Source: Rheinheimera sp.
GTDB taxonomy: Bacteria > Pseudomonadota > Gammaproteobacteria > Enterobacterales > Alteromonadaceae
Assembly: GCF_020217005.1 (NCBI RefSeq)
Contig: NZ_JAIWOI010000204.1
Coordinates: forward strand, 1-10,000
Length of the DNA: 10,000 nt
Direction of reading: 5' to 3'
Shown piece by piece: positions 398 to 7,009 of this stretch. Positions within the stretch are counted from its first letter, which is position 1; the number at the start of each line of letters is the position of its first letter. Below the pieces are notes generated by a model. The model saw only the letters and a list, made by a program, of their open reading frames with translations. It had not been told where the DNA came from and ran no database searches. The translations under genes and the position numbers were made by a program.

Positions 398-404
398 GCG
401 CGCG

Positions 405-486
405 CTCGAAAGGCAAGTCTCCCGAAAGGGAGTACACGCAAAGCTGCAGATCTAAGGGGAAACCTATGATGGCTGGGCTGCCGTAA
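405..486 (+). ncRNA. Cyclic di-GMP class I (GEMM-I) riboswitch aptamer
   Basis: The region shows the GEMM-I hallmarks in order. GGCAA at 412-416 is the 5' core. A 5-bp stem, CTCCC 419-423 with GGGAG 428-432, is capped by a GAAA tetraloop (424-427). The conserved ACGCAAAGC follows at 436-444. An 11-nt tetraloop receptor variant is formed by UCUAAG (451-456) and UAUGA (465-469); relative to the classic CCUAAG/UAUGG its outer C-G pair is replaced by a compensating U-A. The receptor helix is itself capped by GG-GAAA-CC (457-464). The 3' core GGCTGGGCTGCC (471-482) lets GCC close on GGC 412-414. By eye the base aligned with Vc2 G20 is G412, which fits c-di-GMP rather than cGAMP, but this is not decisive. 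The aptamer lies about 170 nt upstream of the only following plus-strand gene, so it probably controls that gene. Confidence 0.88.
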
Positions 487-4641: not shown

Positions 4642-5862
4642 CTAATGCTGTTGCACTGCCAGCAAGCGTTGGCCCCATTCCACAGCTTCAAAATAAACCA
4701 GATTTAAATCAACAGATTCTGGAACCATGCGCGATGACAGCTGAGTTTGTTGTTGCCATAGACCCTGTTCAAAAGCGCGTTCGATAGCCAAATAGTCTGC
4801 CAACACACCGATGTTTTCCAGCAGAGCCTGTTTTATTTCAGGTAACAGAGGTAGCTGAGCCATTAACTCTGCCAAAGGTTGCTCCAATAACGCATCCACC
4901 AACGAAAACAGACCCGTTAAAAACGCCGCAGGAGGGTTTTCCTGATCGCCACGTATATTCGCCAGTCGATCACAAAAACGTGCTCTGATCAAAGACATCA
5001 CCAGCAGCTCATCAGAATGACCCTCTGCAAGGTTGGCCAGAGCCAGTAGCGAAATAAATTTCTTTAGTTCGGCTTCTCCCATATAGACCATGGCATGCTT
5101 TAGTGAGCCTATACTTTGTTTACGGGCAAAGTTGGCGCTGTTGATAAACCTTAACAACTTGTAGGACATATCTAAATCCCGTTCAACTATGGCCGCCAAA
5201 CCGTCGAAATCTAACCTTATCTTGCTGGATTCACTGATCAGGGCCAGCAAATTCAGTTTGTTGCTGCCTAGTTGTTTGTGTTTTAACATTTCAGGCCTGG
5301 CAAAAAAGTAACCCTGATACAAGTCAAAACCCAGTTGTTTTAGTTGTTCGTATTCATCCGCAGTTTCTACCTTCTCAGCCAGTAGAGTGACAGGGTAGGC
5401 GGCAATACGGCGCAGATATTTGCTTATTTGCAATATATTGAACATCTGCACATCGACCTTAATGATGCTGATGTAAGGTAAAAATACGTCCCACTTGGCG
5501 TCAAAGTTATGGTCATCCAAAGCGAGGCGATAACCCATTTTATGCAGCTCTTTACAGGCAGTCAGCAGTTCATGACTAATAGGTACGGTTTCTAGTATTT
5601 CAATCACCATACTATTGGGATCAATAGAAGTAGGGAAATGGTGGATTAATGTGTCCGCAGAGAAGTTTATAAAGGCCTGCTTACCGCCTGTTATTTTCTC
5701 AACACCCAATAATAAGTGGTGTTGAGTGATCAGTTTGGATGTGGCCTCATCGGCATCAATATTGGGAAAACAATTGTCCACTCCGTCTCTGAATAACAAC
5801 TCATAGCCAGTGACGGTCTTTTGGCGATCAAAAATTGGCTGACGCGCGACATAACAATACAT
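4642..5862 (-). CDS. EAL-HDOD signalling protein (c-di-GMP phosphodiesterase-like domain plus HDOD)
   Basis: The 406-aa protein has an N-terminal EAL-type domain (about 1-195) and a C-terminal HDOD domain (about 200-395). EAL landmarks are present in altered form: GYELLFR (19-25) replaces the EALxR motif but keeps E21; N66 is in INFSAD; E88 and E91 in VIEILET; D116 and D117 in LDDHNF; K135 in IIKVD; E163 in LAEKVE; Q183 in YQGYFFARP. Most metal and catalytic positions therefore survive, but the loop-6 DFGTG motif is degenerate (DHNFD), so activity on c-di-GMP is uncertain and a sensor or scaffold role is possible. HDOD is an HD-related domain often acting in signalling without catalysis. There are no membrane segments. 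AAGG lies 8 nt before the ATG. The gene separates ftsX from rpoH. Confidence 0.92.
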   Translation of the reverse strand: MYCYVARQPIFDRQKTVTGYELLFRDGVDNCFPNIDADEATSKLITQHHLLLGVEKITGGKQAFINFSADTLIHHFPTSIDPNSMVIEILETVPISHELLTACKELHKMGYRLALDDHNFDAKWDVFLPYISIIKVDVQMFNILQISKYLRRIAAYPVTLLAEKVETADEYEQLKQLGFDLYQGYFFARPEMLKHKQLGSNKLNLLALISESSKIRLDFDGLAAIVERDLDMSYKLLRFINSANFARKQSIGSLKHAMVYMGEAELKKFISLLALANLAEGHSDELLVMSLIRARFCDRLANIRGDQENPPAAFLTGLFSLVDALLEQPLAELMAQLPLLPEIKQALLENIGVLADYLAIERAFEQGLWQQQTQLSSRMVPESVDLNLVYFEAVEWGQRLLAVQQH

Positions 5863-5918: not shown

Positions 5919-5971
5919 TTTATCATATAAGAAAAACCTATGCCTACATATGAATTGATATTATTAAAAAT

Positions 5972-6000
5972 TTGGGCTTATTCAATTAGGGTCTTAAAAC
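5972..6000 (+). promoter_or_regulatory. Tentative rpoH promoter upstream of the CIRCE operator
   Basis: TTGGGC (5972-5977) and TAAAAC (5995-6000) are 17 bp apart, each a weak match. The start site would fall just before the CIRCE element, so a repressor bound there would block early elongation or initiation. An alternative -10 is TAATAT (6037-6042), at the right edge of CIRCE. I cannot choose between them from sequence. Confidence 0.25.
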
Positions 6001-6012
6001 CAGTAAATTTTT

Positions 6013-6039
6013 TTAGCACTCTCCGTTAAAGAGTGCTAA
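6013..6039. promoter_or_regulatory. CIRCE element, HrcA repressor operator, upstream of rpoH
   Basis: TTAGCACTC (6013-6021), a 9-bp spacer (6022-6030) and GAGTGCTAA (6031-6039) match the CIRCE consensus TTAGCACTC-N9-GAGTGCTAA at all 18 half-site positions and in spacing. CIRCE is bound by HrcA, the heat-shock repressor whose activity depends on the GroE chaperonin; its usual targets are groESL and dnaK operons. Here it lies 36-62 bp before the rpoH start codon and is the only such site in the window. If transcribed it would also form a 9-bp RNA hairpin in the rpoH leader. It lies on the far side of rpoH from any chaperone gene, so rpoH is the probable target. Confidence 0.93.
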
Positions 6040-6074
6040 TATTTGAGCCAATCAAGCGATTAGGGGGAAAGAAC

Positions 6075-6929
6075 ATGACTCAGGCTTCACAAATGATGAC
6101 TCTGACAGTGGCTGGAAGTGGCAGCCTTGAAGCTTACACTCATGCGGTAAGTACTATCCCAATGCTCACAGCAGAAGAAGAACGTTCTTTAGCTGAAAAA
6201 TTGCAACAAGACGGCGATTTAGAATCGGCCCGCGTTTTAATTATGTCTCACCTACGTTTTGTAGTGCATATTGCCCGTAGCTATTCTGGTTATGGTTTGC
6301 CTATCAGCGACTTAATTCAGGAAGGTAATATAGGCCTGATGAAAGCAGTGAAACGTTTTGATCCTTCCGTGGGGGTGCGTTTAGTGTCTTTTGCGGTGCA
6401 CTGGATTAAAGCTGAAATTCATGAATTTGTGCTGAAAAATTGGCGTATTGTCAAAGTGGCAACTACAAAGGCACAACGTAAATTATTCTTTAACCTGCGT
6501 AAAGCCAAAAAGCATTTAGGCTGGTTCAGTAAGGAAGAAGTACAAAGTGTTGCTGATTCGTTGGGGGTTCCTGTGCACGAAGTGCTGGAAATGGAGTCCC
6601 GTATGAGCAACCACGATATGCCTTTTGATGCATCGGATGATGAAGACGAAAGCAACTACACTGCTCCGGTGTTTTATTTGCAGGATAAAGGTTCAGATTT
6701 AGCCAACCGTATTGAAGAAGACCAATGGGATAACGCATCAGTAGACAGATTACAGGCTGCCATGCGTACGCTGGATGAACGTAGTCAGGATATTATCCGT
6801 GCTCGTTGGCTGGACGATCAAAAACTGACATTGCAGGAATTGGCAGACCGGTATCAGGTTTCTGCTGAGCGGGTTCGCCAGCTAGAAAAGAACGCAATGA
6901 AAAAACTTCAGACAGCAATGGCAGCTTAA
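6075..6929 (+). CDS. rpoH: RNA polymerase heat-shock sigma factor RpoH (sigma-32)
   Basis: RpoH directs RNA polymerase to chaperone and protease promoters during heat or envelope stress. Starting at 6075 the protein is 284 aa, the same as E. coli RpoH, and follows it along its length. Region 2 includes [14 protein letters not shown] (79-92) and [20 protein letters not shown] (101-120). The RpoH-specific box QRKLFFNLR is at 134-142, and the region 4.2 helix-turn-helix spans about 251-276 ([20 protein letters not shown]). The ATG has a strong ribosome site AGGGGG at 6062-6067, 7 nt away. An in-frame GTG at 6033 would add 14 residues, but it lies inside the CIRCE operator and has no ribosome site. 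The gene is separated from ftsX by the EAL-HDOD gene, so it needs its own promoter. Confidence 0.97.
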
Positions 6930-6962: not shown

Positions 6963-7009
6963 AGGGTCAGAGTAAAACTAAAGCGGCGGTTTAGTTTTAC
7001 TCTGACCCT
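6963..7009. repeat. Perfect 20-bp inverted repeat, REP/MITE-like palindrome
   Basis: The arms 6963-6982 (starting AGGGTCAGAG) and 6990-7009 (ending CTCTGACCCT) are exact reverse complements around the 7-base loop GCGGCGG. The element lies between the convergent ends of rpoH (6929) and yibQ (7016). No T-run follows on either strand, so it is not a normal intrinsic terminator, though the stem could slow polymerase or protect RNA ends. GGGTCAGAGT...ACTCTGACCC termini are, as I recall, common in dispersed palindromes linked to REP-associated tyrosine transposases (RAYT, Y1_Tnp family). No transposase is present here, so it would be a non-autonomous copy. The other half of the window does not contain a second copy. 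Confidence 0.8.

Follow-up and report, generated by a model that had tools for sequence, protein, structure and literature searches.

In Escherichia coli, the level of the heat-shock sigma factor sigma-32 (RpoH) is controlled through mRNA structure, DnaK/GroE and FtsH; E. coli is not known to have HrcA. In Bacillus subtilis and many other bacteria, HrcA and its operator CIRCE govern a regulon consisting of groESL and dnaK. The locus described here, from a Rheinheimera sp. genome, raises the question of whether the two types of control meet, since a CIRCE palindrome stands directly before rpoH. The whole stretch of DNA that was analysed (10,000 nucleotides) is referred to as the window.

The rpoH locus and its operator

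A pattern search found a single CIRCE match in the window, TTAGCACTC-N9-GAGTGCTAA at 6013-6039 (+ strand; half-sites 6013-6021 and 6031-6039), which bears out the claim of an earlier note that a mismatch-free CIRCE with a 9-bp spacer precedes rpoH (0/18 mismatches). Dinucleotide shuffles of the window (n = 200) contained on average 0.01 matches even at up to three mismatches. The operator lies near the start codon, with 35 bases between its end and the A of the rpoH ATG (6075). The target gene itself (6075..6929, +) passes the RpoH equivalog model (TIGR02392, 414.3 bits; cut-off 323.1), and among the matches listed the named loci of Alishewanella agri and Rheinheimera pleomorphica encode RpoH proteins of 84% and 83% identity, respectively. 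A probable ribosome-binding site, AGGGGG (6062..6067, +), was read from the sequence at a place that is G-rich in the genus alignment. The same alignment points to a candidate sigma-70 promoter (5955..5984, +), with TTGATA at 5955-5960, 18 bases, and TATTCA at 5979-5984; the candidate -10 element reads TATACA or TATAAG in many relatives, and a generic promoter scan did not flag this promoter before rpoH. Transcription from it would place the operator ~20-50 bases into the transcript. Upstream of the operator, all 22 aligned genus members share TCTTAAAA (5992..5999, +) without change.

In 25 aligned relatives (22 genus members and three close relatives), 18/18 half-site bases are invariant, as are the first two and last two bases of the spacer (4/9); the spacer occurs in 13 distinct versions in the same sequences, with variation confined to its middle five bases. 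Operator and rpoH are separated by 33-37 bases in each of the 22 genus members as well as in G038, G083 and G063. Three relatives (G056, G069 and G118) carry tandem CIRCE pairs before rpoH, 31 bp apart start to start (L040 2403-2460; L042 2598-2655; L044 2312-2369).

The gene order around the operator is ftsY-ftsE-ftsX, a divergent EAL-HDOD gene (4642..5862, -; start 5862) that shares its intergenic region with rpoH, and rpoH. Similar EAL-HDOD open reading frames lie between ftsX and rpoH in G056 and G069, whereas in E. coli MG1655 rpoH follows ftsY-ftsE-ftsX without an intervening EAL-HDOD gene. Downstream of rpoH, the terminator scan and a motif search found a terminator-like palindromic stem of 20 pairs (6963..7009, +); membership in a repeat family was considered for this palindrome and rejected, since a search of the genome allowing one mismatch gave no second copy of its motif GGGTCAGAGTAAAACTAAA. 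Elsewhere in the window, a c-di-GMP-I riboswitch aptamer (RF01051, 60.2 bits) occupies 402-485 (+), before a gene for a DUF3718 protein (656-1024).

HrcA and the operator in related genomes

The genome (G000; 3.92 Mb in 379 contigs) contains one hrcA, encoding 340 amino acids from a GTG start (PF01628, 129 bits; TIGR00331, 232.5 bits, cut-off 197.2), so that CIRCE and hrcA occur within one genome. An alignment to Thermotoga HrcA (1stz, E 1.5e-19) covers residues 6-157, and the helix-turn-helix motif SSATVRN and the wing PHTSAGRVPT are retained. The Pfam score of 129 bits compares with values of up to 211 in relatives from the same order. In G084, HrcA (L058 4124-5062, -) is strongly diverged, at 118 bits against the NCBIfam cut-off of 197.2, so annotation by that cut-off would miss this hrcA; the rpoH of G084 nevertheless has a perfect CIRCE. 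The best match among named loci to the rpoH loci of G084's genus is Pseudoalteromonas.

In 147 related genomes searched for HrcA, CIRCE (up to two mismatches), groES and RpoH, with the coordinates joined, HrcA exceeded the Pfam cut-off in 38, and all 38 have CIRCE before rpoH, 33-162 bases ahead of the point where the RpoH match begins (this point may lie some codons inside the gene). Among the remaining genomes, with HrcA absent or below the cut-off, 0/109 do, a group that includes G060 with its weak sub-cut-off HrcA match. An RpoH match at E 1e-60 or better was present in 143/147 genomes; the four others also lack CIRCE. Fisher's test gives p 1.7e-34 for the association of hrcA with rpoH-CIRCE, with G060 entered as hrcA-positive and kinship ignored. 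CIRCE matches with two mismatches at places other than rpoH numbered six in five genomes: the hrcA-negative G023, G042, G065 (two) and G134, and the hrcA-positive G130. These extra sites look like chance, because a reversed control pattern yields a similar number (five matches in four genomes: G033, G105, G108, and two in G133). In the 350 bases before rpoH of 23 hrcA-negative relatives and E. coli, the best CIRCE match has 5-9 mismatches, about the level of shuffled sequence. The invariant half-sites, the variable spacers and the co-occurrence with hrcA together make it very probable that 6013-6039 is an HrcA operator under selection.

A wider search shows that this arrangement extends well beyond the family. 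Among named genome contigs, at least 118 stretches combine a core CIRCE with a following rpoH coding motif; when rescored, 74 were perfect, 38 had one mismatch and six had two. The matches listed include Pseudoalteromonas, Methylobacter, Nitrosomonas, Accumulibacter, Thauera, Aromatoleum and Thioalkalivibrio, as well as Rheinheimera pleomorphica and Alishewanella agri. Many of these records are metagenome-assembled genomes (MAGs) under the names given by their depositors, and two look mislabelled: a 'Klebsiella pneumoniae' MAG record (L145) that carries rpoH-CIRCE although its group is not known to have hrcA, and a 'Rheinheimera tuosuensis' MAG record (L072) with no blastn match to the 25 rpoH loci of the clade. 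In an evenly drawn sample of 151 genomes, almost all from different families of the class (taken here as Gammaproteobacteria as GTDB delimits them, betaproteobacteria included), hrcA is present in 108 and rpoH-CIRCE in at least 55, a lower bound because the search pattern was strict. With two spacer ranges searched, rpoH-CIRCE occurs in at least 52/108 hrcA-positive versus 3/43 hrcA-negative genomes; the latter three are 62-86% complete.

The site is also known from print. Table 8 of Rodionov et al. 2004 (PMC545781) gives a perfect CIRCE at rpoH of Geobacter sulfurreducens, with predicted HrcA control; as here, it lies near the start codon (at -51). According to the same source, Geobacter sulfurreducens also has CIRCE at groESL and at hrcA-grpE-dnaK-dnaJ, whereas here rpoH alone has it. 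The passages available from PMC10696704, PMC10490939, PMC11764788 and PMC12281610 describe no CIRCE at rpoH, and HrcA and rpoH are absent from the main text of a comparative study of proteobacterial regulons (PMC5343134). In Neisseria gonorrhoeae, the phrase 'represses rpoH' used of MtrR (PMC10850145) apparently refers to another transcription factor acting on rpoH, but one that involves neither HrcA nor CIRCE. Among the best-matching titles and abstract beginnings, drawn largely from outside the subscription journals, none was seen to treat HrcA as a regulator of rpoH in gamma- or betaproteobacteria. The likeliest place for earlier reports of rpoH-CIRCE in these classes would be the work of Permina and Gelfand from 2003. 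The earlier note had set a CIRCE at rpoH apart from the normal HrcA targets, groESL and dnaK; being common in the class and in print since 2004, the site alone is less exceptional than this suggests. It is already known, and the unusual part is the regulon around it.

Chaperone genes and the promoter of hrcA

At up to two mismatches, every CIRCE in the 31 hrcA-positive genomes of the organism's own family sits at rpoH, with one site each in 29 genomes and the tandem pairs in G056 and G069. The genome under study has a further match only at three mismatches. At this looser threshold, G015 (a single contig of the same genus) has the rpoH site only, and G021 (also a single contig) has, like G000, one further match; the reversed control pattern gives none in G015, G021 or G000. 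As G015 and G021 are single contigs, the lack of sites elsewhere cannot reflect an assembly gap in these two genomes. Upstream of groES (30 regions, from 29/31 family genomes and G130), dnaK (20) and hrcA (10), the best CIRCE match has 6-9/18 mismatches, as in shuffled sequence, and six hrcA loci (L039, L054-L058) contain no CIRCE at up to three mismatches. Thus groESL, which is called 'the only constant member' of the HrcA targets in PMC545781 for the bacteria treated there, does not appear as a target here, with no CIRCE in the 29 family groES regions; nor was CIRCE found at hrcA or the dnaK operon in the organism's own family.

Outside the family, CIRCE stands before both groES and rpoH in six of seven hrcA-positive relatives; in the seventh, G130, it is found at rpoH without groES, in addition to the extra two-mismatch site noted above. 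In the class sample, a CIRCE search allowing two mismatches gave a single site in 16/151 genomes, and three of these genomes match the rpoH patterns: G000, G236 (76% complete) and G245 (73% complete). Compared with the Bacillus subtilis type of regulon, the operator is the same and the repressor is orthologous, but the direct chaperone operators are absent here and any action of HrcA on the chaperones would pass via sigma-32. Because rpoH is the sole gene with CIRCE found in the genus, this cascade would be the only route open to HrcA.

The chaperone genes have promoters of a kind that such a cascade would use. A sigma-32-like promoter, in the genus CTTGGxT-14-CCCCATAT, lies at a nearly fixed place upstream of groES, and one that reads CTTGAAT-14-CCCCATTA in the genus lies at a nearly fixed place upstream of dnaK in most regions; the groES match is weak in G057, and the dnaK match is at a different place in G056. 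For groES, scores of 11-12 are mostly no higher than the maximum among 20 shuffles (10-13); for dnaK, scores of 12 compare with shuffle maxima of 11-12. The argument thus rests on position and on conservation over genomes, not on single scores. A sigma-32-like promoter, CTTGAAT-13-CCCCACAA, also precedes hrcA in the genome under study. With a score designed after reading the hrcA upstream sequences, 13/13 regions of the first set reached p <=0.025 each, with a set mean of 12.0 (maximum of 200 shuffled sets, 9.8); with an earlier unweighted score, hrcA regions (9-11) exceeded the shuffle maximum in 0/10. The promoter is present in 13/15 own-family regions scored (G057 lies outside this count), with none before hrcA in G056 and G069 of the family, and in 1/6 hrcA loci of other families (L004, from G101). 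A further CTTGAAT-13-CCCCATAA was read from the sequence at the 3' end of hrcA, before grpE.

Mechanism, alternatives and significance

Beyond the features read from the DNA (the operator, hrcA, their strict co-occurrence, the lack of operators at those chaperone genes that were examined, and the sigma-32-like promoters), we infer HrcA binding, the direction of regulation, the sensing of GroE, and a loop. With considerable confidence, the best explanation is that 6013-6039 is a working operator at which active HrcA lowers rpoH transcription; with rpoH the sole CIRCE gene found in the genus and in the hrcA-bearing family relatives, HrcA would act on the chaperones through sigma-32 only. In Bacillus, free GroE keeps HrcA active. 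By analogy, HrcA would leave the operator when unfolded protein engages GroE, and rpoH would be transcribed; sigma-32 would then switch on groESL, dnaK, grpE and hrcA, and the new GroE and new HrcA would shut rpoH again. The likely mode is that HrcA blocks polymerase at the operator, which would lie in the early transcribed region. The supply of chaperones would thus set, through HrcA, the level of the heat-shock sigma factor, and HrcA in this organism is best read as a predicted repressor with one target, rpoH, that forms part of a negative-feedback loop. The earlier note had proposed HrcA control above sigma-32, and the presence of hrcA and the retention of the palindrome in all 38 hrcA-bearing relatives speak for that proposal.

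A palindrome that is probably transcribed could also act chiefly at the RNA level, as a hairpin in the 5' leader of rpoH that influences mRNA stability or translation, with HrcA binding secondary. The site does fold well alone (-12.4 kcal/mol, z -5.3), but the 81-nt leader as a whole shows no unusual stability (z -1.1), the 18 half-site bases are invariant in 25 relatives although compensatory changes would leave a hairpin intact, and presence of the palindrome tracks hrcA over 147 genomes, all of which makes a role chiefly in RNA quite improbable. Still more remote is the idea that the operator serves the divergent EAL-HDOD gene, or both genes, from their common intergenic region: the operator lies 35 bases from rpoH versus 150 from the EAL-HDOD gene, its distance to rpoH is steady, and in G057, with an FtsX-like open reading frame (named from its translation) next upstream, it is still found at rpoH.

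The alternative with the most in its favour, which we nevertheless regard as unlikely, is that the operator is a relic or contributes only a minor input and that sigma-32 is still set by DnaK/GroE, FtsH and mRNA structure, with little effect of HrcA. It draws on the divergence of HrcA in the family, in the genome under study as in G084, and on region 2.1 of RpoH, in which L47 and A50 are kept, mostly with R at 51, in hrcA-positive genomes and in five hrcA-negative relatives (the hrcA-positive loci other than L014, L042, L046 and L049 were compared). L47 and A50 are known from E. coli for their part in control by chaperones and FtsH. A relic, however, is not expected to hold 18/18 bases across a genus, nor to persist where the groESL and dnaK operators are missing. 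Loss of chaperone control in the RpoH of hrcA-positive genomes was considered and rejected, as region 2.1 shows no clear difference from the five hrcA-negative relatives and E. coli. Protein-level control of sigma-32 therefore probably remains, and a working HrcA operator would probably add a transcriptional layer to it, HrcA being perhaps one input among others.

The E. coli type of rpoH mRNA thermosensor, in which a stable structure of the 5' coding RNA conceals the start region, was considered as a function that HrcA might replace. The 5' coding RNA of rpoH has z +1.75 here versus -1.53 in E. coli, and genus averages are 0.19 (12 hrcA-positive) versus -0.62 (25 hrcA-negative groups), a weak difference (p 0.026) that ignores kinship; the same weak comparison gives p 0.20 for accessibility of the start region. 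The comparison took in 35/38 hrcA-positive genomes, 25/109 others and E. coli (loci L207-L236, L301-L320 and others). A less structured rpoH mRNA in hrcA-positive genera might, weak as the difference is, reflect a trade-off between repressor and RNA control.

The neighbours of hrcA bear on its history. In the genome under study the gene is flanked by nadK and grpE, and both adjoin it in 12/14 hrcA loci compared (neither was matched in L004, and nadK was unmatched in L006). E. coli has grpE-nadK-recN-bamE-yfjF-ratA-smpB with hrcA missing; it resembles the present organism in its orthologous rpoH beside ftsYEX and in the common grpE-nadK-recN-bamE neighbourhood, and differs in having no HrcA match among the control genomes searched and no CIRCE at rpoH (best 7-8/18 mismatches). 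Because the neighbours nadK and grpE are conserved, and nadK stands beside grpE without hrcA in E. coli, loss of hrcA seems likelier than its acquisition by horizontal transfer, and the HrcA-free control of rpoH in E. coli looks derived. With rpoH-CIRCE found across gamma- and betaproteobacteria, and in print for one deltaproteobacterium, the simplest account is that HrcA control of rpoH is old and disappeared, along with hrcA itself, in lineages like the one leading to E. coli. A fuller proposal, plausible but taken jointly a little short of probable, is that the HrcA of this clade shed every chaperone operator and became a dedicated regulator of sigma-32 synthesis in a loop in which sigma-32 activates hrcA and HrcA represses rpoH; that chaperonin load, read at one promoter, is the main transcriptional set-point of the heat-shock response; and that rpoH has long been under HrcA in gamma- and betaproteobacteria, the E. 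coli design having arisen through loss of hrcA between grpE and nadK.

What is usually said about the control of sigma-32 comes from E. coli, a bacterium without HrcA. Should HrcA stand above rpoH in roughly half or more of the families of this class that have hrcA, the E. coli picture would describe a derived state. In a genus with a single operator, one promoter would mirror the entire output of HrcA, which would make such a genus well suited to finding out what HrcA senses; feedback by a repressor could also be compared there with feedback by RNA and proteolysis on the same sigma factor.
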